The notes under the pieces are model-generated. The model was given only the letters and a program-made list of their open reading frames with translations. It was not told the origin of the DNA and ran no database searches. This document shows positions 2,812 through 29,527 of a stretch of 35,239 nt of DNA, piece after piece (the stretch's first letter is position 1; the number at the start of each line of letters is the position of its first letter). Source of the stretch: Acidimicrobiia bacterium (GTDB lineage: Bacteria; Acidobacteriota; Vicinamibacteria; Vicinamibacterales; CAVVIG01); contig VFZL01000041.1 in assembly GCA_016871175.1 (NCBI GenBank), positions 1 to 35,239 of the forward strand. The letters are read 5' to 3'. The position numbers and the translations under genes are program-made.

Positions 2812-3834
<1,023 letters not shown>

Positions 3835-13405: not shown

Positions 13406-13952
13406 CCGGCCGTCGCGACCATCAGCGTCGTCAATAGTGACGGGCCTTGCGCGGTTTCGAGTGCCGCTCGGGTTCTTCATGGCGGTGATCGTGTGGGTGC
13501 TGGCGCTTCCCACGCGCCGTTCGATGTTCATCGGGACCGCTATCGCGGCGATGGGTGAGGCCCTCCGCGTCTGGGCGGCCGGCCATCTACGGAAGTCTCG
13601 CGAAGTGACGACATCCGGACCCTATCGATTCTTGGCGCATCCGTTGTACGTCGGGTCGGCCATCATGGGCCTCGGGGTGGCGATAGCGTCCGGAAGCCGA
13701 TGGGCGTGCGCGCTCGTCGTCGTCTACCTGGCGACGACGGTCACGGCCGCTATACGCGAGGAAGAGGCGTTTCTGCGGCAGAAGTTCGGCGCGGCGTACG
13801 AGGCCTACAAGCGCGAATCATGGCAGCGGGCATCGGCGACCCGCTTCAGCTTCCGTCAGGCGCTGGCTAACAGAGAACACCGCGCGATGCTGGGTTTCGT
13901 GGTCGCCCTGTTGCTGCTCCTTTGGAAGGCTACCTATAATCGACTTCCCTAG
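13398..13952 (+). CDS. Isoprenylcysteine methyltransferase-like membrane protein
   Basis: Integral membrane protein of the ICMT/PEMT-like methyltransferase family. Hydrophobic helices lie near residues 17-40, 75-115 and 160-180. The family SAM-binding signature TSGPYRFLAHPLYVGS is present, followed by EEEAFLRQKFGAAYEAYKRE. At 184 aa it is typical. Bacterial members methylate small or lipid-like substrates that are mostly unknown; isoprenylcysteine itself is not implied. I start it at ATG 13398, overlapping the waaC stop by 8 nt; this coupling suggests an envelope- or lipid-related role, which is inference. Confidence 0.85.
   Translation: MADRPSRPSASSIVTGLARFRVPLGFFMAVIVWVLALPTRRSMFIGTAIAAMGEALRVWAAGHLRKSREVTTSGPYRFLAHPLYVGSAIMGLGVAIASGSRWACALVVVYLATTVTAAIREEEAFLRQKFGAAYEAYKRESWQRASATRFSFRQALANREHRAMLGFVVALLLLLWKATYNRLP
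13911..13940 (+). promoter_or_regulatory. candidate promoter for the tRNA-Val/tRNA-Asp unit
   Basis: TTGCTG (13911-13916), an 18-nt spacer and a perfect TATAAT (13935-13940) lie inside the last codons of the methyltransferase gene. A start near 13946 would transcribe through tRNA-Val and tRNA-Asp. Confidence 0.55.
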
Positions 13953-17504: not shown

Positions 17505-19829
17505 ATGACACGACCATCACCCGCTCTAGACCAACGGCCTGTCGTCCGCGGCAATGCGACGACCGCTGCGCCCAGCTCCACAGCGCCAGACGGGCACGCG
17601 ACCGAGTGGCGACCGCCCGACTTGGCGGCGGTGCAAGAGTGCTTGACGCTGCTCGCGCGAGCGGTGCGACAGTTCCACACGTATCCGGACACCAGCCCGC
17701 TCTGCCTCGAGGCGATGGTCGCCTGTCAGAAGGCGCTCGTCGGTCTGCACGCGCGCGAGCATCTGGCGTTCAGGGTGATACCGAACCATCTGGTGGTCGA
17801 CGAGATCGCGCTTGGTGCCGGCACCGTTGTGGCCTAGGAGCTGGCGCACCGGCTCCACCGTGCGCACGTGGCCAGCGTGGAGATCGCGCGCGCGATCCGC
17901 ACGCGCGATCTGACCCGGTTCTGCAAGGACCTGAGCGGCCTCGGTGAGGCGCGGCAGGCGGCGCATGCCTTCCCCGAGCTGCTGGCCGAGCACGGTGTCT
18001 GCGACATCACCGTGCACCCGGCGCACCGACCGGAAGTGCTCGACGTCGGTCCCCTGCACCCGCCTGTCCAGCGCCTGGTCGATCACGAGAAACAGCGACG
18101 CCAGGCGCTCTTCGCCTCGGGTGGGCCGGTGCACCATCTGTATCCGCCCGACAAAGGGTGGGTGCGCGTCGACCCGTCGGCGACGCACGACTCGTTCTCG
18201 CTGGTGGACCTCGCGGTCCTCATCGACAATCCGGCCGAGATCGCGGTCGCCCTCATGCGGTTGACGGGGGACGAGACTCAGGCAGCCCACGATTCCCGTG
18301 CGGCGTTCGAGCACAAGTTCTCCGATCTCACGGCCATCTTCTCCGCCGTCGACCCGCGCCTGGCGCGCCAGCTCTTCTCGAAGCTGTCCCGCGCCGTCCT
18401 CGAGCTCGACCCCGATCGGCACTCCCGCTTGCTCAAGCGCACGGTGTTGCCCGGCCTGCTCGACGGCAAGCTCGAGGGGTCGGTCCTCGGCGATTTCCCG
18501 GATGTTGAGCTCGCCGAAGCGCTGTGCCTGCTGCTGGACCTCGAGACCGCCTCACCTGACGTCCTGACGACTGCGCTCGACCGATTGGGCCTGCCGCCCG
18601 AACGGCGGCAGAACATCGTGCCGCTGCTCGAAGCGCGCCTGAACCGCACGGCCCCACCTCGGCCGGACGCCTACGGCCACGACCACGCCATCGAAAGCTA
18701 CGCGCGCCGGCTCGTGGCGCTCAAGCCCGGCGAGGCCCGCAGCTTCGCGGAGTACACGGCGTTCGATCTCTCCGTCACCGAGGACACGAAGTCGCTGGTC
18801 GGTCAGTTGGTCGACGCGATTGGCACCACCGACCTGGGGACCTCGCAGCTCGAGACACGGTTGCGACTCGTGCGGCTGGAGCCGAACCCGGAGCTGGTCG
18901 CGGCGTTCATGGAGCTGACCCTCAAGCTCTTCGAGGACCTCGAAGGCCGGCAGCAATGGAGTCCACTCGCCGAGTGGGCCGCCAAGTTCAATGGCCTGGC
19001 GGTGGCGCTCCGTGACACGCGACCTGACGCGGCGGATGCTGTGTGCACCGGGCTCGCGCGCTTCGGCACCGTCGCCCGCGCTGTGGCGATCGCGGACCTG
19101 TACAATGCGGGCGGCGAGCCTCGCGCGCGGGCACTCGCGCTGGCCGACGGGTTCGGCGCGGCGCTCGCTGACGCCTTTCTGTCGGCGGTCGACGCTCCCG
19201 CAGCCGGCGGGGCGGCGCGGCCACTGGTGGCCCTGATGACCGAACGTGCACAGACGTTCGCGCCCGTGCTGGCCGGGCGGCTGCGCGACTGCGGCACCGC
19301 AGCCCGTCACGCGATAGTGAGAGTGCTCGGCGCCGCAGGAGCGATGCACGCGCCGGCCGTCATCGCCCTCTTACCGCCGCAGGACCGCGAGTGCGACGAG
19401 GCCACCGGCCGCGAGGCGCTGCGCGCGCTCGCGCGGATGGCGACACCGACAGCGGCCGCCGCGGTCGCGGCATGTCTCACGAGCGATGTCGCGTGGCTGC
19501 AACTCGCGGCCGAAGAAGCCCTGTGGCATTTCCCCGCACCGATGGCGTCGGCGCAGGTGCGAACGCTCTTGGCCGATCGCGAGTTCGCCCTGAGCCACCC
19601 AGACGTCGCCGGACGCCTGCTCGAGCGCGCCGCACAAGCGGGCATCAGCGGGCTTGCTCCCGTGCTCCAGGCGCTCGCGCCGCTGCGGTTCCGCTTTTGG
19701 AATCCCGCGCTCGTCCGTGTTACTCGGAAAGCCCAACACCTGTTGCTCTCAGGACGAAGCATCCCGTGTCCCCGACATCTCCGTCCGAATCACCGGCACA
19801 CGCGCTCCTGGATCCGCTGCCGATGCTGA
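17505..19829 (+). pseudogene. HEAT-repeat-like protein interrupted by in-frame TAG
   Basis: ATG 17505 opens a frame that runs 110 codons to a TAG at 17835-17837 and then, in the same frame, continues for about 660 codons to 19829. The residues on both sides belong together. They align with the N-terminal domain of the HD-GYP protein at 19766: HTYPDTSPL against GTYPTGHPM, and LVVDEIALGAGTVVA then ELAHRL against VHLESVAFATDSQTTGQLVEDL. The TAG falls inside that shared domain. The rest is alpha-helical and HEAT-like (IVRVLGAAGAMHAPAVIALL, MATPTAAAAVAACL). I read it as one gene with a single nonsense substitution, perhaps CAG to TAG, but a sequencing error or read-through cannot be excluded. No enzymatic motif is recognised. 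Confidence 0.7.
17868..19829 (+). CDS. Downstream open part of the interrupted HEAT-like gene
   Basis: From GTG 17868, 30 nt after the amber codon, an uninterrupted 653-residue frame remains that could be expressed by re-initiation. It lacks the first two thirds of the N-terminal domain. Helical repeat sequence fills most of its length, with no signal peptide or membrane segment seen. The last 20 or so residues overlap the start of the HD-GYP gene and look poor in coding character, so the functional end may be earlier. Function unknown. Confidence 0.5.
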   Translation: MASVEIARAIRTRDLTRFCKDLSGLGEARQAAHAFPELLAEHGVCDITVHPAHRPEVLDVGPLHPPVQRLVDHEKQRRQALFASGGPVHHLYPPDKGWVRVDPSATHDSFSLVDLAVLIDNPAEIAVALMRLTGDETQAAHDSRAAFEHKFSDLTAIFSAVDPRLARQLFSKLSRAVLELDPDRHSRLLKRTVLPGLLDGKLEGSVLGDFPDVELAEALCLLLDLETASPDVLTTALDRLGLPPERRQNIVPLLEARLNRTAPPRPDAYGHDHAIESYARRLVALKPGEARSFAEYTAFDLSVTEDTKSLVGQLVDAIGTTDLGTSQLETRLRLVRLEPNPELVAAFMELTLKLFEDLEGRQQWSPLAEWAAKFNGLAVALRDTRPDAADAVCTGLARFGTVARAVAIADLYNAGGEPRARALALADGFGAALADAFLSAVDAPAAGGAARPLVALMTERAQTFAPVLAGRLRDCGTAARHAIVRVLGAAGAMHAPAVIALLPPQDRECDEATGREALRALARMATPTAAAAVAACLTSDVAWLQLAAEEALWHFPAPMASAQVRTLLADREFALSHPDVAGRLLERAAQAGISGLAPVLQALAPLRFRFWNPALVRVTRKAQHLLLSGRSIPCPRHLRPNHRHTRSWIRCRC

Positions 19830-21250: not shown

Positions 21251-23653
21251 ATGCGTGTTCTTGTCCAGGTGTTCCGTCGTGAGCTGACCGCGGCGCGCGC
21301 GCGTTACCCGATCGGCGTGCCCGTGGTGGCGACTGCCTTCCTGATCGCCGCCCTCGTACCGCCGGCGCTCGGCAGTTGGGGCATCCTGACGATGTTCACG
21401 GGCCTGCCCGACGAAGCCGCGATTGGGCGCATGGGCGAAATGGATCAGGCGACGGCCGTCTACGACACACGCGATCGCCTGGTGTTCACGATCTACAAAG
21501 ATCGGGGGATGGAAGTACCGCTCGACCGGGTGTCGCCGCACCTGGTACAGGCGATGCTGGCTATCGAAGACCAGCGCTTCTACCAGCATCGCGGCTTCGA
21601 CCTCGTGCGCATCGCGTCGGCGGTGCTGGCCAACGTGCGGCGTGGGTATCGCGCCCAAGGAGGCAGCACGATCACCCAGCAGTTGGCGCGGCAGAGTTTC
21701 CTCACGCCCGACAAGACCATACGCCGCAAGCTGCAGGAGCTGGTGCTCGCCGCGCGCATCGAGCGGAGGTATTCGAAGGCGGAGATCCTTCAGCTCTATC
21801 TGAACAAGTTGTACTTCGGCGACGGCTTGTACGGGATCGAGGCCGCGTCGCAAGGCTTCTTCGGCAAGCATGCGTCGGAGCTGCTGATCGAAGAAGCGGC
21901 GCTGCTGGCGGGCCTCGTCAAGTCACCCTCGTCGTACACGCCCACGATCAGCGTCGAGCGCGCGATCGCGCGGCGCAATGTGGTGCTGCAGGTGCTGCTC
22001 GACAACGGCACCATCGACAGCGCCGCCTTCGAGCGTGCTCGGCAGACGACGGTCAGCCTGCAGAATGGCCTGCGGATCGATGAGCCGACGGGGCAGTACT
22101 TCAAGGAGCAGGTGCGGCGCGAGCTCGTCGACCGGTTCGGCTGGGAGGCGGTGTATCAGGGCGGCTTGAAGGTCTACTCGACCATCGACATGACCATGCA
22201 GGAGGCCGCCGAGGAGGCCGTCGCGGAGCAGTTGAAAGCGCTCGACGCTCGCCGCGCGAGGCTTCCGGGCGCGCCCAAGGCGGTGTCGGACCAGCCGGCC
22301 GTCGATCCCAATCCGCTGCAGGCGGCCTTGATGGCCATGGATCCGCGCACCGGGGAGGTGCGCGCGATGGTGGGCGGACGCGACTTCGACCGGAGCACGT
22401 TCAATCGTGCCGTCCAAGCCAAGTGGCAGCCCGGGTCGGCGTTCAAGCCGTTCGTCTACGCAGCGGCGCTCGAAGCGGGATTCACCCCTGCATCCATCGT
22501 CGATCGTCTGAACGAACCCATCGACACGATCGAGGGCGCTTGGACGCCTGAGGAGGAGCACGAACCCGGCGAGAGCATCAGCCTGCGCGCGGGCCTGAGA
22601 ACCTCCAGCAACCGAGCGGCCGTTCGCCTGCTGCAGGACGTGGGGATCGGCAAGGCCGTCGGATACGCGAAAGCGATGGGCGTCGGCAATGTGCCGGCCG
22701 TCCCCTCCTTGGCACTCGGGTCTGGCGAAGTGACGCTGGAGTCCATGACGGCCGCCTACGCGGCGTTCGCCAACGGCGGACAGGTGCCGCATCCATTCGT
22801 GATTCGCCGGGTCGAAGATCGCAGCGGGCAGGTCCTGTTCCTCGAGAAGCCGCGGGTGTCGAAGGCGGTGAGCGAACAGACGGCGTTCATGATGTCGAGC
22901 ATGCTGTCCGACGTCATCAACGCCGGCACCGGCGCCCGTGCACGCGGCCTGGGCTTCACCTTGCCGGCGGCCGGGAAGACCGGCACCACCAACGACTTCA
23001 ACGACGCTTGGTTCGTCGGCTTCACCCCGAAGCTCGTGGCGGGTGTGTGGGTGGGTTTCGATACGCCGCGGACCATCATGCCGCGTGGCTTCGCCAGCGA
23101 CGTCGCCGTCCCGTTGTGGACGGCCTTCATGAAAGCCGCGACCTCCGCCGACAAGGCGGAGTGGATCAAGATGCCTGGCGACATCGTCACCGCGACCATA
23201 TGCCGCTTGTCGGGCCGTCTGGCGGTTGAAGGGTGCGAACACGCAGAAGTGCTCTCGGAGGATGGACGCGTGACGCGGCGCTCGGTGGTGTACACGGAGT
23301 ATTTCCGCGCGGGTACGCAGCCAACCACCTCGTGCGCTTTACACCAGTCGGGCCATCTGTTCGCGACTGTCGCCTCGGTCTTCGGGCAGGCGACGTCCGA
23401 GCTCGAACCGCCGCCAGAGCCGGCCGTCGTTCCGCCTCCGGCGGCACCCGCCGCTGCACGTGCTTCCACTGCCGAAGTGGCCGCTGCCGCACCGGCGCCC
23501 GCGGCGGCAGAGCCCGCGCCGAAGCGCCGCGGGTTCTGGGGGCGCGTGTTCGGCCGTCGCGACAGGCCCGAGCCCGACGATGCCGGCGACCGCGGTCGCC
23601 GCGGTCGTGATCGCGACAACGACCGTAACCGGTCACGCGACGAGAGGCGGTAG
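21251..23653 (+). CDS. Penicillin-binding protein 1A family, bifunctional peptidoglycan synthase
   Basis: Class A PBP polymerising and cross-linking peptidoglycan in the periplasm. After a short cytoplasmic start, a membrane anchor (about 20-42) leads into the GT51 transglycosylase domain, with catalytic Glu106 in IEDQRFYQHRGFD, then GGSTITQQLARQ and RKLQELVLAARIERRYSK. The transpeptidase domain has the nucleophile Ser396 in GSAFKPF (SxxK), SSN at 452-454 and KTGT starting at Lys576. The C-terminal 100 residues are Pro/Ala-rich then very basic (RRGRDRDNDRNRSRDERR) and probably disordered. At 800 aa it fits PBP1A. A TATGCT close to the ATG suggests a very short leader, but the promoter is unsure. 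First of a cluster with holB, pdxA and smpB. Confidence 0.95.
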   Translation: MRVLVQVFRRELTAARARYPIGVPVVATAFLIAALVPPALGSWGILTMFTGLPDEAAIGRMGEMDQATAVYDTRDRLVFTIYKDRGMEVPLDRVSPHLVQAMLAIEDQRFYQHRGFDLVRIASAVLANVRRGYRAQGGSTITQQLARQSFLTPDKTIRRKLQELVLAARIERRYSKAEILQLYLNKLYFGDGLYGIEAASQGFFGKHASELLIEEAALLAGLVKSPSSYTPTISVERAIARRNVVLQVLLDNGTIDSAAFERARQTTVSLQNGLRIDEPTGQYFKEQVRRELVDRFGWEAVYQGGLKVYSTIDMTMQEAAEEAVAEQLKALDARRARLPGAPKAVSDQPAVDPNPLQAALMAMDPRTGEVRAMVGGRDFDRSTFNRAVQAKWQPGSAFKPFVYAAALEAGFTPASIVDRLNEPIDTIEGAWTPEEEHEPGESISLRAGLRTSSNRAAVRLLQDVGIGKAVGYAKAMGVGNVPAVPSLALGSGEVTLESMTAAYAAFANGGQVPHPFVIRRVEDRSGQVLFLEKPRVSKAVSEQTAFMMSSMLSDVINAGTGARARGLGFTLPAAGKTGTTNDFNDAWFVGFTPKLVAGVWVGFDTPRTIMPRGFASDVAVPLWTAFMKAATSADKAEWIKMPGDIVTATICRLSGRLAVEGCEHAEVLSEDGRVTRRSVVYTEYFRAGTQPTTSCALHQSGHLFATVASVFGQATSELEPPPEPAVVPPPAAPAAARASTAEVAAAAPAPAAAEPAPKRRGFWGRVFGRRDRPEPDDAGDRGRRGRDRDNDRNRSRDERR

Positions 23654-23659
23654 CGCGTC

Positions 23660-24685
23660 ATGCCGTTCCGCGACTGCGTCGGCCATCGGCCGCTGCTGGC
23701 CGTGCTGGCGCGCTCGATCACGCGCGGCTCGCTCCCGCCGAGCCTGTTGTTCGCCGGTCCCGAGGGCATCGGCAAGCGATTGGTGGCTGTCGCCGTGGCC
23801 CAGGCCCTGAATTGCCCACAGCCGCGGATCGGCGGTCCCGCCGATCCCGACGCGCGCCTCGAGGTCGATGCCTGTGGCACCTGCCCGTCCTGCCTGCGGA
23901 TCGCGCGCAGCGTGCATCCCGACGTCGCGATCGTCGAACCGGGCTCGAGCGGCAGCATCAAAGTGGAACAGATCCGCGACATGGTCGATCGCGCCGCGTT
24001 TCGCCCGTTCGAAGGGAAGCGCCGTGTGGTGATCGTCGACGATGCGGACGCGATGGTGGATCAAGCGCAGAACGCGCTTCTGAAGACGCTCGAGGAACCA
24101 CCACCGGCGTCGGTGTTTCTCCTCGTCACGGCGCGCCACGACGCGCTGCTGCCGACGGTCCGGTCGCGGTGTCCGCTGCTGCGGTTTCGACCGTTGAGCC
24201 CCCAGGAAGTGGCTGACGCGCTCCTGCGGGCGGGACTCACGGAATCCGAGGCGCGCGCCGTGGCCGCCACCGCCGACGGGAGCGTCGGGCAGGCACTGCA
24301 GGCCTCGGCTGGCGACCTCGTCGAGTCGCGTGAGGTGGCGGCCCGGGCACTGCTCCAGGCCTCAAGGTCTGACGCTGTGCGCGCGCGGTTGGACGCCGCA
24401 AAGGAGCTCGTGGCCGGCGCCGGGGCGGGCGCGAGCGAGCGAGATCACCTCTCGCGGCACCTGCGCGCCATGGCGTCGCTGCTCCGCGACATCGAGCTCC
24501 TCGAGAGCGGCGGCGATGTCGGCGCGTTGGCCAATGTCGACGTGCGAGCCGAGCTCGGTCGATTGGCCGCGTTCGGAGGCGAGCGGGGCGTTCGCGCGTT
24601 CGCTGCGGTAGACGAGGCGCTGGTGGCGCTCGATCGCAACACGAGCGCGAAAGCGGTCGCCGACTGGCTGCTGCTCAGGTTGTGA
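23660..24685 (+). CDS. holB: DNA polymerase III delta' subunit
   Basis: AAA+ clamp-loader subunit that helps open the sliding clamp. The 341-aa protein shows GHRPLLAVLARSI at the N-terminus, a P-loop GPEGIGKR, and a zinc-binding module whose visible cysteines are in ACGTCPSC. VVIVDDADAMVDQAQNALL is the Walker B-like region, and KTLEEPPPASVFLLVT with TVRSRCPLLRF contains the sensor and SRC motifs. It starts 6 nt after the PBP gene and ends 12 nt before pdxA, so it is embedded in the operon. DnaX (gamma/tau) shares some motifs, but the size and lack of a long tail favour HolB. Confidence 0.92.
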   Translation: MPFRDCVGHRPLLAVLARSITRGSLPPSLLFAGPEGIGKRLVAVAVAQALNCPQPRIGGPADPDARLEVDACGTCPSCLRIARSVHPDVAIVEPGSSGSIKVEQIRDMVDRAAFRPFEGKRRVVIVDDADAMVDQAQNALLKTLEEPPPASVFLLVTARHDALLPTVRSRCPLLRFRPLSPQEVADALLRAGLTESEARAVAATADGSVGQALQASAGDLVESREVAARALLQASRSDAVRARLDAAKELVAGAGAGASERDHLSRHLRAMASLLRDIELLESGGDVGALANVDVRAELGRLAAFGGERGVRAFAAVDEALVALDRNTSAKAVADWLLLRL

Positions 24686-24697
24686 GGGCGCGCGGGT

Positions 24698-25582
24698 ATG
24701 GGCGGACGTCCTCGGGTGGCGATTACGGTCGGCGATCCGTCGGGGATCGGTCCGGAGATTGCCGCGCGTGCCGCCGAGGACCCGTCGGTTCTCGACGTCT
24801 GTGATCCCGTGCTCTACGCGCCGACCGACCCGGCTTCGTTCGCGCCCGGCGAGCTCAGCGCACGGGCCGGCCGCGCGGCCTACGATCAGATCGTGCGCGC
24901 GACGGCGGATGCCCAGCGGGGAGGTGTCGACGCCATCGCCACCGCCCCGGTCAGCAAAGAGGCGTTTCGCCTCGCCGGTCTGCCGTGGACCGGCCACACC
25001 GATCTGCTCGGCCACCTGACCGGTTCGACGCACGTGGCGATGATGTTCGACTCGGACGTGCTGCGCGTCGTGCTGGCCACGGTGCACGTCGCGTTGGCGG
25101 ACGTGCCGCGGCTGTTGACACAAGCATCGCTCGAGGCGACGATCACACTCGCAGCCTTGGAGCTGCCCCGGTTTGGAGTGCCGACGCCGCGCCTGGCCGT
25201 CGCGGGTCTCAACCCGCACGCAGGCGAACATGGGCTCTTTGGTCACGAGGAACGGGATGTCATCGAACCCGCGATCGCGGCCTGTCGACACCGTGGCGTC
25301 GACGTGGCGGGACCGTTCCCGGCGGACACGATCTTCTTGCGCGCGACGCGCGGGGAGTTCGACGTGGTCGTGGCGTGCTACCACGATCAAGGACTGATAC
25401 CGGTGAAGCTCGCCGCGTTTGGGCGCGCCGTCAACGTCACGTTGGGTCTGCCCATCGTCCGGACGTCGGTGGACCATGGCACGGCGTTCGACATCGCGGG
25501 GCTGGGCAAGGCCGACGCGGGCAGCATGATCGCCGCCGTGCGCCTGGCCGCCCGGCTGGCACCTCGGACGGTGTCACCCTGA
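24698..25582 (+). CDS. pdxA: 4-hydroxythreonine-4-phosphate dehydrogenase
   Basis: NAD-dependent cytoplasmic enzyme of pyridoxal 5'-phosphate synthesis (DXP-dependent route). The 294-aa protein has ITVGDPSGIGPEI at the N-terminus, TAPVSKEAF, GHTDLL with a metal-binding His, LNPHAGEHGLFGHEE, and CYHDQGLIPVKL plus TSVDHGTAFDIAGLGKAD toward the C-terminus, covering both metal-binding and substrate sites. It is about 35 residues shorter than the E. coli enzyme, mainly in the early N-terminal domain after DPSVLDV. All recognised active-site blocks remain, so it is probably functional. A paralogue with other specificity (PdxA2 type) cannot be excluded. Confidence 0.92.
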   Translation: MGGRPRVAITVGDPSGIGPEIAARAAEDPSVLDVCDPVLYAPTDPASFAPGELSARAGRAAYDQIVRATADAQRGGVDAIATAPVSKEAFRLAGLPWTGHTDLLGHLTGSTHVAMMFDSDVLRVVLATVHVALADVPRLLTQASLEATITLAALELPRFGVPTPRLAVAGLNPHAGEHGLFGHEERDVIEPAIAACRHRGVDVAGPFPADTIFLRATRGEFDVVVACYHDQGLIPVKLAAFGRAVNVTLGLPIVRTSVDHGTAFDIAGLGKADAGSMIAAVRLAARLAPRTVSP

Positions 25583-25602
25583 GGGCCCCTCGCGGCGCTG
25601 CC

Positions 25603-26286
25603 ATGACTGACCGAACCGCGCGTGAGCTCGCGCAGATCAACATCGCCGAGAACCGCAAGGCGTTCCACGACTATCACATTCTCGATACGTACGAGGCGGG
25701 TGTCGCGCTGCTGGGCACGGAGGTGAAGGCCATTCGCGAGGGTCGCGTCAACCTGCGCGACAGCTACGCGAGCATCGAGCGGGGCGAGGCGTTTCTCCAT
25801 CACGTGAACATCAGCCCGTACAGCCATCGCGGCTACGCCGATCACGAGCCGCTGCGTGCGCGGAAGTTGCTGCTGCACAAACGAGAGATTCTGAAGCTCA
25901 CCACGCAGGTGGCCGAGAAGGGTATGACCCTGGTGCCCCTGCGGATGTACTTCAAGGATGGGCGGATCAAGGTCGCGGTAGGCGTGGCGAGGGGGAAGAA
26001 GGCATACGACAAGCGCGAGGCCATCAAGCAGCGCGACGCGGATCGTGAGGCTCGTGCCGTGATGAAAACGGCGCGCCGCACGCGAGAGTCATGTCCCCAG
26101 TACAATAGCCCGCGCAGGAAACCGAGGGTGTCATTGCTCCAAGTTGGGCCGGGGGACGAGGTGATCACGTCGACCGACTCGTTCTTTGCGACGGCTGGCG
26201 TCACCGTTCGTGTAGACGCGCCACCGGTGTTCGTCGACCTCGATCCGGTCACCTACAACATCGAGCCGGCCGCCGTGCGGGCTTGA
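25603..26286 (+). CDS. smpB: SmpB, tmRNA-binding protein, with in-frame C-terminal read-through
   Basis: SmpB binds tmRNA and brings it to stalled ribosomes for trans-translation. Residues 1-158 are a complete SmpB: NRKAFHDYHILDTYEAGV, LLGTEVKAIREGRVNLRDSY, the tmRNA-binding core, then KGMTLVPLRMYFKDGRIKV and the basic tail KKAYDKREAIKQRDADREAR. Normal SmpB proteins end about there (about 150-160 aa). Here no stop follows, and the frame adds about 70 residues ending at a TGA at 26284. The last 50 or so match a sugar aminotransferase of the DegT family, not SmpB. A TACAAT at 26101-26106 lies inside the added part, hinting at former intergenic sequence. ATG 25603 lies 20 nt after pdxA. Confidence 0.9.
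   Translation: MTDRTARELAQINIAENRKAFHDYHILDTYEAGVALLGTEVKAIREGRVNLRDSYASIERGEAFLHHVNISPYSHRGYADHEPLRARKLLLHKREILKLTTQVAEKGMTLVPLRMYFKDGRIKVAVGVARGKKAYDKREAIKQRDADREARAVMKTARRTRESCPQYNSPRRKPRVSLLQVGPGDEVITSTDSFFATAGVTVRVDAPPVFVDLDPVTYNIEPAAVRA
26131..26283 (+). pseudogene. Relic of a DegT/DnrJ/EryC1-family sugar aminotransferase
   Basis: The translation VGPGDEVITSTDSFFATAGV followed by VFVDLDPVTYNIEP matches the N-terminal cofactor-domain stretch of PLP-dependent nucleotide-sugar aminotransferases (roughly residues 60-110 of a 370-aa enzyme). Both ends of the enzyme, including the PLP-binding lysine region, are absent. It lies in frame with smpB, so it is translated as its tail. Presumably a deletion removed the rest; the neighbouring nucleotide-sugar genes are a plausible original context. 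Confidence 0.7.
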
Positions 26287-26297
26287 AGACGCGCCGC

Positions 26298-27593
26298 ATG
26301 CAGCTCGAGTCCGCTTCAGGCGGGTCGCCGCGCGTAGAGCCCGCGAGCCGTTTTCCCAGTGTCACGACGCAGATCTTCATCGGGCTCGTCGCAGGCGTTG
26401 TCGTCGGATACCTGTGGCCCTCGTTCGGTCTCAACGTGCGACCGCTGGCAGACGCGTTTCTGCGCATGATCAGGATGATCATCGCGCCGCTCCTCTTCTC
26501 GACGTTGGTCATCGGCATCGCAGGCACCGGCGATCTCAAGGCGATGGGGCGCATCGGGCTCAAGGCCATCGTCTATTTCGAGATCGCCACAACGATCGCG
26601 CTGGTGCTCGGTCTCGTGCTGGTCAACGTGTTTCGGCCGGGCAGCGGCCTGACGCTGCCGACCGGTGACACGAGCGCGGTGAGCGCGCTGTCCCAGAACC
26701 AGCAGCACGCGTGGGATATCTTCTTGCACCTGTTCCCGACGTCGGTCGTCGACGCCATGGCGAGAGGCGACATCCTCCAAATGGTGGTGTTTGCCACGTT
26801 CTTTGGCGTGGCCGCCGCCGCGATCGGCCCGCGCGCGAAGCCAGTACTCGACGCGCTCGACAGCGTGGCGCACGTCATGTTCCGCGTCACCGCCTACGTG
26901 ATGCGGTTCGCGCCGTTCGGCGTCTTCGCCGCGATCGCCGCCACCGTCGGCGGCCACGGACTCTCCGTGCTCGTCACCCTCGGCAAGCTGGTCGCCGTGA
27001 TGTACCTCGGGTACATCGTGTTCGTCGCGCTCGTCATCGGAGGCGCGGCGGTGCTCGCGCGGATCCCGTTCGGCACCTTCGTGACCGCCATCCGTGAGCC
27101 GATGCTGATTGCGTTCACGACGGCGAGCTCGGAAGCAGCGCTGCCGAAGGCGCTCGACATCATGGAGCGGTTCGGCGTGCCGAAGAACATCGTGTCGTTC
27201 GTGCTGCCAACCGGCTACAGCTTCAACCTCGACGGCTCGACACTCTATCTCGCGCTGGCCAGTCTGTTCGTTGCTCAGATCGGTGGTGTCACGCTGACAC
27301 TCGGGCAGCAGATCTTCATGATGCTCACGCTCATGCTGACGAGCAAGGGCGTGGCCGGCGTGCCTCGGGCGGCACTCGTGGTGCTCACCGCTACGGCGAC
27401 ACAGTTCGGGCTGCCGCTCGAGGGTGCTGCGATGCTGCTGGGCATCGACCAGCTGCTGGACATGGGACGCACGGCCGTAAACGTCATGGGCAACTGCATC
27501 GCCACCGTCGTTGTGGCTCGATGGGAGGGCGTGTTCGACGACGGGCGGATGCGCACGTTCGCACCGGTGGCGATCCAAGGTCAGGAGATCTGA
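26298..27593 (+). CDS. Dicarboxylate/amino acid:cation symporter (DAACS family)
   Basis: Inner-membrane secondary transporter of the GltP/DctA type, driving uptake of glutamate, aspartate or C4-dicarboxylates with H+ or Na+. Eight or so hydrophobic segments are interspersed with the family hallmarks: PLADAFLRMIRMIIAPLLFS, the serine-rich re-entrant loop TTASSEAALPKAL, SFVLPTGYSFNLDGSTLY (NMDGT-type motif) and MGRTAVNVMGNCIAT. I prefer ATG 26298 (431 aa); a TTG at 26283 overlapping the previous stop (TTGA) is an alternative. Substrate choice cannot be read from the sequence. It ends overlapping rmlD by one base. Confidence 0.92.
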   Translation: MQLESASGGSPRVEPASRFPSVTTQIFIGLVAGVVVGYLWPSFGLNVRPLADAFLRMIRMIIAPLLFSTLVIGIAGTGDLKAMGRIGLKAIVYFEIATTIALVLGLVLVNVFRPGSGLTLPTGDTSAVSALSQNQQHAWDIFLHLFPTSVVDAMARGDILQMVVFATFFGVAAAAIGPRAKPVLDALDSVAHVMFRVTAYVMRFAPFGVFAAIAATVGGHGLSVLVTLGKLVAVMYLGYIVFVALVIGGAAVLARIPFGTFVTAIREPMLIAFTTASSEAALPKALDIMERFGVPKNIVSFVLPTGYSFNLDGSTLYLALASLFVAQIGGVTLTLGQQIFMMLTLMLTSKGVAGVPRAALVVLTATATQFGLPLEGAAMLLGIDQLLDMGRTAVNVMGNCIATVVVARWEGVFDDGRMRTFAPVAIQGQEI

Positions 27594-28429
27594 TGCGGAT
27601 CGTCGTGACCGGCGCCCGAGGGCAGCTCGGGATGGCAGTGACGGTCGCCGCGAAGGCGCGCCACGACGTGCTCGCGCTCGACCGCGCCGCGCTTGACGTT
27701 CGCGATCCCGCCTCCGTCCAGGTGAGGCTTCGAGACCTTCGGCCGGATGTGGTGATCAACTGCGCGGCCTACAACGCGGTGGACGGCGCCGAGGACCACG
27801 TCGCCGATGCCGTGCGGACCAACGCCCTCGCGGTTCGCAACCTGGGACGCGCCCTCGATGGCGCGACGCTCGTGCACTACAGCACGGATTTCGTGTTCGA
27901 TGGCGAGGGCAGCCGACCCTACGTCGAGACGGATCGTCCGAATCCGCTGAGCGTGTACGCGATGTCCAAGCTGATGGGAGAGTGGTTGGCCCTTGACACC
28001 GCTCGTGCGTACGTCCTGCGGGTCGAGAGCCTGTTCGGCAATGCGCCAGGCGGCCCCTCCAAAGGCAGTGTGCAAGCGATCGCCGACGCGCTCCTCACCG
28101 GACAGACTCCGCGCGTCTTCGAGGACCGCACGGTCACGCCCACGTCGGTGCATGACTGCGCGCGAGCCACGCTCGCGCTGCTCGGGCGCGATGCAGCGCC
28201 CGGCTTGTATCACTGCGTGAACAGCGGCGTGTGCACATGGCTCCAACTGGCGCGCGAAGTGGCTCGGATTCTTCGCGTCCCTCCGCGGTTCGACATCGCG
28301 CGGTTCGCGGACGTCAAGTTGCGTGCGCAGCGCCCCCGATACTGCGCGCTCTCGAACGTCAAGATCGTCTCGGCCGGCTGTGTCATGCCGACGTGGCAGG
28401 AGGCACTCGAGGCCCATCTGAACCCTTGA
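27593..28429 (+). CDS. rmlD: dTDP-4-dehydrorhamnose reductase
   Basis: Extended short-chain dehydrogenase reducing dTDP-4-keto-L-rhamnose to dTDP-L-rhamnose with NADPH. The Rossmann glycine motif is GARGQLG (7-13). VVINCAAYNAVDGAE and HYSTDFVFDGEG are family signatures, and the catalytic pair Tyr122-Lys126 is in VYAMSKLMGE. The ATG shares one base with the previous stop (TGATG) and has a good AGGAG at 27583-27587; the 278-aa length is normal. rmlA and rmlC are about 4 kb away on the other strand, and rmlB is not in the window. Confidence 0.9.
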   Translation: MRIVVTGARGQLGMAVTVAAKARHDVLALDRAALDVRDPASVQVRLRDLRPDVVINCAAYNAVDGAEDHVADAVRTNALAVRNLGRALDGATLVHYSTDFVFDGEGSRPYVETDRPNPLSVYAMSKLMGEWLALDTARAYVLRVESLFGNAPGGPSKGSVQAIADALLTGQTPRVFEDRTVTPTSVHDCARATLALLGRDAAPGLYHCVNSGVCTWLQLAREVARILRVPPRFDIARFADVKLRAQRPRYCALSNVKIVSAGCVMPTWQEALEAHLNP

Positions 28430-28432
28430 CCC

Positions 28433-29527
28433 ATGCTGGCTCGCATTGACGTAGCCGTGATCGGGGCCGGCGTCACAGGCCTGGCGGCGGCGTGGCACAT
28501 CGCCCAGACCGGCCGTTCGGTGTGCGTCATCGAACGCCACGCTCGCCCGGGCCTCGAGGCCAGCACGCACAACAGTGGCGTCGTCCACGCGGGTCTGTAC
28601 TATCCATCCGGGTCGCTAAAGGCGCGGCTGTGCGTCGAAGGGCGCGATCGTCTGTACGCGTTCTGTCGGAACTACGATGTTCCGCATGCGCAGTGTGGCA
28701 AGCTCGTGGTCGCGCACGATGCCGAGGAAACCGCCCGTCTTCTTGCCATGAAGGCGACCGGAGAGGCGAACGGGGTGCGCGGTCTGACGATTGTCGATCG
28801 CGGGTTCATCCGCGAGCGAGAACCCCACGCGTCGGGTGTCGCCGCCCTCTTTTCTCCCGTGAGTGGGATTGTTGACGCGGATGCCCTCGTCAGGACCCTG
28901 CTCCGAGTCGGCGAAGCGGCTGGTGTCGCGTTTCTTCCTGGCGCGGCGCTCATCGCCGCACACACGAGCGCGAACGGCATGCGCCTCGTCACGGCCAGAG
29001 AGGAGCTCGTGGCAGGTGCCGTCGTCAACGCTGCAGGGCTGTATGCCGACGAGGTGTCGCGACTGTTGGGAGGGGAGACGTTCACCATCCATCCCTGCCG
29101 TGGTGAGTATGTCGAGCTGGCACCCGCAAAACGGCATCTGGTCCGGGCGCTGATTTATCCGCTGCCCTACACCCACGGTCTCGGCGTGCACACCATCAAG
29201 ACCGTGCACGGGTCTGTCTGGCTCGGTCCCACCGTGCGCTTTCAGGTCCGCAAGGACGACTACGAGGATGATCGTGCGCCGGTGGAAGCGTTCTTCGAGC
29301 CGGCGCGCAGAGTACTCGATGGCATCACGCTCGAGGATCTGCGCCCCTCGGGCTCTGGCATCCGGGCGAAGCTGCACGGACCCGACGTTCCGTACGCAGA
29401 CTTTCTGATTCGTCGCGATGTCTGCAACGCGCGCGTCATCCATGCCGCGGGCATCGAGTCGCTCGGCCTCACCTCGTGCCTCGCCGTGGGACGGCTGGTC
29501 GCGCGGATCCTTGGAAAGATCGCGTAA
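28433..29527 (+). CDS. lhgO: FAD-dependent oxidoreductase, L-2-hydroxyglutarate dehydrogenase/oxidase family
   Basis: Member of the DAO superfamily that oxidises L-2-hydroxyglutarate to 2-oxoglutarate, passing electrons to the quinone pool or oxygen. FAD binding is shown by DVAVIGAGVTGLAAAWHIA with the distal Glu at VCVIERH. The LhgO signature EASTHNSGVVHAGLYYPSGS is present, as are GVHTIKTVHGSVWLGPT and the C-terminal IHAAGIESLGLTSCLAVG. At 364 aa it is slightly shorter than E. coli LhgO. It begins 3 nt after rmlD and is probably co-transcribed, though the metabolic link with rhamnose synthesis is unclear. A related glycine- or glycerol-type DAO is less likely. Confidence 0.85.
   Translation: MLARIDVAVIGAGVTGLAAAWHIAQTGRSVCVIERHARPGLEASTHNSGVVHAGLYYPSGSLKARLCVEGRDRLYAFCRNYDVPHAQCGKLVVAHDAEETARLLAMKATGEANGVRGLTIVDRGFIREREPHASGVAALFSPVSGIVDADALVRTLLRVGEAAGVAFLPGAALIAAHTSANGMRLVTAREELVAGAVVNAAGLYADEVSRLLGGETFTIHPCRGEYVELAPAKRHLVRALIYPLPYTHGLGVHTIKTVHGSVWLGPTVRFQVRKDDYEDDRAPVEAFFEPARRVLDGITLEDLRPSGSGIRAKLHGPDVPYADFLIRRDVCNARVIHAAGIESLGLTSCLAVGRLVARILGKIA

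Follow-up and report, generated by a model that had tools for sequence, protein, structure and literature searches.

An extended smpB reading frame that ends in a degT relic in a Vicinamibacterales draft genome

In Escherichia coli, the mRNA channel of the ribosome accommodates SmpB residues 142-160 as a helix (PMC4151336), and the very end of the protein contacts helix 5 of tmRNA where that channel opens; tagging does not depend on the last five residues, and a C-terminally His-tagged E. coli SmpB was used, and worked, in a cryo-EM study (PMC8363625). In the excerpted text of a survey of 4542 SmpBs, the longest extension is that of Tropheryma SmpB with 44 extra residues, for which the survey raised the question of what the channel tolerates, and the few multi-domain cases are explained as artefacts, including stop codons read as sense codons through sequencing error (PMC4131195). 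Proteins lengthened at the C-terminus by recent loss of a stop codon have been catalogued in yeast and fly, one of the fusions described there being an assembly error (PMC4494051, in excerpt). Here, we report an smpB frame that continues about 65-70 residues past the usual end of SmpB, i.e., with a tail longer than the 44 residues given for Tropheryma in the excerpts of that survey. The case resembles those in the excerpted yeast and fly catalogue in that the stop is lost and downstream sequence becomes the C-terminus; it differs in that the host is a bacterium and the added part is the relic of a neighbour gene, read in its own old frame. Since the survey, as excerpted, treats multi-domain SmpBs as artefacts and has 44 residues as its longest extension, the case is unusual and error must be excluded first. 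No SmpB extension or fusion of this kind was found in the open-licence PMC literature, as far as its excerpts go, which is not proof of absence.

The extended smpB frame

The window is the whole contig VFZL01000041.1 (35,239 nucleotides), one of 85 contigs of a draft genome that is 96.8% complete. On its forward strand the smpB frame is open from 25603 to 26286 without an internal stop, giving 227 codons and a translated protein of 227 amino acids that contains GKKAYDKREAIKQ. Residues 1-159 (25603..26079) are the SmpB body with its own C-terminal tail: residues 14-155 match Pfam SmpB (PF01668) over profile positions 1-142 of 143 (E 6e-60, 201.8 bits, cut-off 27), and the protein scores above the cut-offs of both NCBIfam SmpB equivalogs (NF003843, 207.2 against 130; TIGR00086, 188.1 against 119.1), which places it in the SmpB family. 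The conserved GKK and DKRE (DKR) motif are present. The genome holds one smpB, together with a tmRNA (RF00023, contig C3, 190.4 bits, gathering score 47). The window protein therefore shares with other SmpBs the whole body, the DKR motif, the helical tail, the single copy and the tmRNA partner; its length of 227 residues departs from the usual length and single-domain build, which are typical of the family and not defining.

Beyond the SmpB tail, four pieces follow on the same strand. Residues 160-171 (26080..26115) are the former border between smpB and degT and include the word TACAAT (26101-26106, in frame as codons 167-168); residues 172-179 (26116..26139, RKPRVSLL) probably represent the first eight degT codons; residues 180-227 (26140..26283) are 48 surviving internal degT codons; and the frame closes with TGA (26284..26286). 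Residues 178-226 match Pfam DegT_DnrJ_EryC1 (PF01041) at E 1.8e-12 and 47.6 bits (curated cut-off 19.8). Searched alone, the last 51 residues reach E 8.9e-14 against the same family and hit 39 distinct sequences of solved structures at E <= 0.1, the best being WbpE (7.9e-10); chance similarity to aminotransferases is rejected because of these Pfam E-values and structure matches. Only profile positions 58-106 of 360 are covered, so the extension is a relic and not a member of the DegT/DnrJ/EryC1 family as a full-length enzyme, most of which is gone. The initial annotation had claimed that the frame runs on for some 70 residues and that the last 50 of these come from the N-terminal domain of a PLP sugar aminotransferase; the added length and the origin from such an aminotransferase gene both hold.

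The extension is confined to one genome. SmpB was detected in 38 of the 40 genomes searched, and in 25 of the 27 genomes of the family (own genome included in both counts); relatives that carry a name are Acidobacteria and Vicinamibacterales bins. As the initial annotation had suggested looking for, relatives do stop at the end of SmpB: in 28 of the 29 loci read, the stop falls at 157-162 in query numbering, the remaining locus (L024) running off its contig. Within the 27 family genomes no SmpB match except the window's own goes beyond query residue 176. In a set of 105 distinct SmpB sequences that includes the window's own, with tails measured from the aligned end of each, the window protein extends 72 residues beyond query residue 155, and no other extends more than seven.

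In the AlphaFold model of the window protein, a helix spans residues 132-163 and pLDDT is below 50 for residues 164-221. Please note that the alignment behind the model has 16 rows, none of which covers the extension, so low pLDDT is to be expected there. By analogy with the E. coli structures, and taking the model as it stands, the added chain would be expected to leave at the mRNA channel entrance.

The degT neighbour and its remains

The surroundings of smpB were read in 19 other genomes, out of the 37 others with SmpB, and pdxA-smpB-degT-symporter-rmlD is common among them. The window keeps this order on its forward strand: pdxA upstream (24698..25582, Pfam PdxA, E 6.9e-101, in the same place in relatives), a sodium:dicarboxylate symporter gene downstream (26283..27593, listed from TTG 26283 with an alternative start at ATG 26300; Pfam SDF, E 2e-120, residues 28-414), and then an rmlD-like gene (27593..28429, listed as an ORF from 27521; Pfam RmlD_sub_bind, E 9.5e-70). 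The next recognised gene after smpB is an intact degT in 14 of the 19 loci, including the genus mate and one locus (L048) in which about 850 bases separate the two genes; the symporter gene comes after degT in 11 of these 14. The remaining five loci (L037, L042, L045, L050, L054) lack an adjoining degT, all keep the SmpB stop, and no degT remnant was found in the gaps downstream of their smpB. In L054, roughly 600 bases (3168-3779, G012) separate smpB from the symporter gene and seem by eye to carry, instead of degT, a YefM/Phd-like antitoxin. Three record titles deserve a remark: CALQBJ020000069.1, titled Bifidobacterium breve, has the same acidobacterial gene order and an SmpB 72% identical, so that the title looks wrong, and two others, titled Acidimicrobiia (L071) and Cyanobacteria (L072), may be wrongly titled too.

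In the genus mate (contig CADEDC010000100.1) the five genes stand in the common order with an intact degT of 385 codons, and protein identity to the window is 86% for pdxA, 86% for smpB, 85% for the symporter and 69% for rmlD. Compared with this locus, the extra SmpB residues are the relic of smpB's normal downstream neighbour, degT, still lying between smpB and the symporter gene. The segment 26116-26139 reads AGG AAA CCG AGG GTG TCA TTG CTC and aligns with the first eight codons of the genus-mate gene (MSPRVPLL); AGG stands opposite the first codon, hence the degT start codon is gone. Residues 180-227 align with genus-mate residues 74-122, one codon fewer, and are followed by TGA. About 65 codons near the 5' end have thus been lost in frame between the two retained pieces, the joint lying at a GCTC that the retained 5' piece shares, and about 263 codons have been lost at the 3' end. 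The global alignment of the two degT sequences scatters small pieces across the deleted parts, and we used the long blocks alone. DegT/DnrJ/EryC1 aminotransferases are PLP-dependent enzymes with an active-site lysine, and what remains here, about 56 of some 385 codons, has neither its own start codon nor the region of that lysine.

The initial annotation proposed that a deletion had joined smpB to the relic. Deletions did make the relic, but a single one does not account for the locus: there are at least two separate losses, the start codon reads AGG, and the TACAAT word and the probable first degT codons still lie between SmpB and the relic. The same annotation would have taken it as refuting if relatives had a complete aminotransferase gene with a start codon of its own; literally this is what the genus mate has, but the window carries the derived state, and the fusion stands.

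The surviving degT codons are decaying: over 44 columns, eight of their residues are private, occurring in none of 25 full-length degT proteins, whereas each of those 25 has 0-4 private residues. Some of the eight are drastic, e.g., D in place of F/Y or of an invariant G. Pairwise values are dN 0.154 and dS 1.03 between the relic and the genus-mate degT, 0.135 and 0.860 between the relic and a full-length degT on contig C2 of the same genome, and 0.094 and 0.731 between the two full-length genes. The relic thus corresponds in position to an intact gene of relatives and shows a lost start, two losses and an excess of private residues, as a pseudogene would, though its pairwise dN/dS is low. The low ratio means that the decay is recent or that some constraint is left, and that most of the divergence is older than the decay. 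The SmpB body is still constrained while the relic decays: it has eight private residues of 157 (range 0-11 in 22 family members), and against the genus mate NG86 gives dN 0.084 and dS 0.854 over 154 codons.

The genome has 14 DegT-family matches, relic included, of which two are strong full-length genes, at C2 and C9, and the rest weaker. The C2 gene (L036, 6980-8134) is 73% identical to the smpB-side degT of the genus mate, compared with 45-53% for other degT copies in relatives. It belongs to the 14-row family clade (support 97/95); one tree groups it with the genus-mate gene at 87/90, and the other gives it no resolved place, so that it may be a copy moved away from smpB; the relic, which fills 13% of the columns, falls outside the family clade with weak support (29/51). 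For neither full-length gene was a named NCBIfam family found above cut-off. By eye, the C2 gene has ORFs for a Wzc-like kinase, a sugar isomerase and a sugar kinase as neighbours, and is therefore probably part of a polysaccharide locus. Judging from these sequences, a spare copy at C2 is a plausible reason why degT at smpB could die.

The border and the lost stop

The alignment of the border to the genus mate is modest, its score being reached by 13 of 5000 mononucleotide shuffles, and it is backed by the TACAAT word, since TANAAT recurs between smpB stop and degT start in nine of 13 relatives examined (absent there in four) and is scarce in the window, with seven occurrences on both strands. 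The boxes at 13935, 29590, 709 (minus strand) and 162 (minus strand) stand shortly 5' of a tRNA or ORF start, and the one at 19101 falls inside a gene. As a rare word in a window of 66.6% GC, sited 5' of tRNA and ORF starts, TANAAT is probably the -10 element of this genome. No promoter came out of a sigma-70 scan over 25500-26500, so TACAAT is called promoter-like only from its place in relatives. The same interval holds two terminator-like sites (0.5 in shuffles), both on the minus strand, and an Rfam search of 23500-28500 returned no family at gathering score.

In three relatives (G015, G020, G005) the smpB stop TAG is itself the first three bases of a TAGAAT box, and in two others (G007, G008) TAG directly precedes the box. 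At that box the smpB frame of the window has the codons CAG TAC AAT, so that a single base change in CAG or in TAC could have removed the stop, as could a small indel. The genus mate does not fix the ancestral position, because its smpB already ends before the box is reached, and its box is not in the smpB frame. Since the box and the probable first degT codons remain between SmpB and the relic, the stop loss sits in the old border and needs no large deletion.

Sequencing or assembly error at the smpB stop is the main rival: the degT relic would be real, smpB would end in the border, and a wrong base or indel in the draft contig would have erased its stop. The TAG found at or directly before the box in five relatives is one base away, another TAG stands at 26106 in a different frame, and the excerpted survey attributes multi-domain SmpBs to artefacts (PMC4131195). 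We nevertheless hold this to be unlikely, at roughly one chance in five. The relic, its private residues and the two losses are real regardless, and several changes agree with decay; the genus mate offers no in-frame stop at the box to restore; and a misassembly joining unrelated loci is itself unlikely, both flanks keeping the gene order of the relatives.

Origin and meaning of the long SmpB

We consider it likely, with confidence well above even, that the long SmpB is a decayed degT relic captured by loss of the smpB stop. From an ancestor with pdxA-smpB-degT-symporter-rmlD, degT would have become dispensable in this lineage, plausibly through a further full-length gene of its group elsewhere in the genome, and would then have lost its start codon, the front codons in frame and the back of the gene. 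The smpB stop would have gone in the border region by a point change or small indel, after which the frame would read through the promoter-like box, the probable first degT codons and 48 more codons to the TGA before the symporter gene. The product, if made, would be an ordinary SmpB with about 65-70 extra residues and no predicted fold. Most likely this is a neutral by-product of gene decay that is tolerated, with no sign of new function. The initial annotation suggested that the added residues could matter in trans-translation; none of the present observations points to such an effect. Some observations sit less easily with decay plus stop loss: the whole stretch is stop-free and the internal degT deletion is in frame, neither of which decay requires; the five loci without adjoining degT keep their stop and show no relic; and the relic has a low dN/dS and a weakly supported place outside the family clade.

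The first of these would be natural if the extension were selected, either as a useful long tail acting in the mRNA channel or at its entrance (where it would alter the timing of tmRNA-SmpB engagement) or by coupling symporter translation to smpB. The frame is open through border, first codons and relic, its TGA overlaps the symporter TTG at 26283 and lies 13 bases before the ATG at 26300, and an AAGGAG that precedes the symporter start in the genus mate is, read by eye, seemingly lost in the window. We regard selection as quite improbable, given the excess of private residues in the relic, the lack of any similar SmpB among the distinct sequences compared (one genome alone has the extension) and the absence of a confident fold in the AlphaFold model. 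That smpB itself is on its way out, with the extension a symptom, we hardly credit: the tail (residues 130-157) has dN 0.131, somewhat above whole SmpB, with dS 1.33, but the body has a normal number of private residues and low dN/dS, the GKK and DKRE motif is conserved and the genome has its tmRNA.

Decay plus stop loss, our preferred reading, would make this locus a clear and datable case of a neighbour gene that, while dying, has turned into the tail of a protein whose C-terminus sits in the ribosome. Were the tail selected instead, it would be the longest SmpB tail among the sequences compared, beyond the 44 residues in the excerpted survey (PMC4131195). If the long SmpB is made and works, it would be a natural test of how much added chain is tolerated at the mRNA channel entrance in trans-translation.
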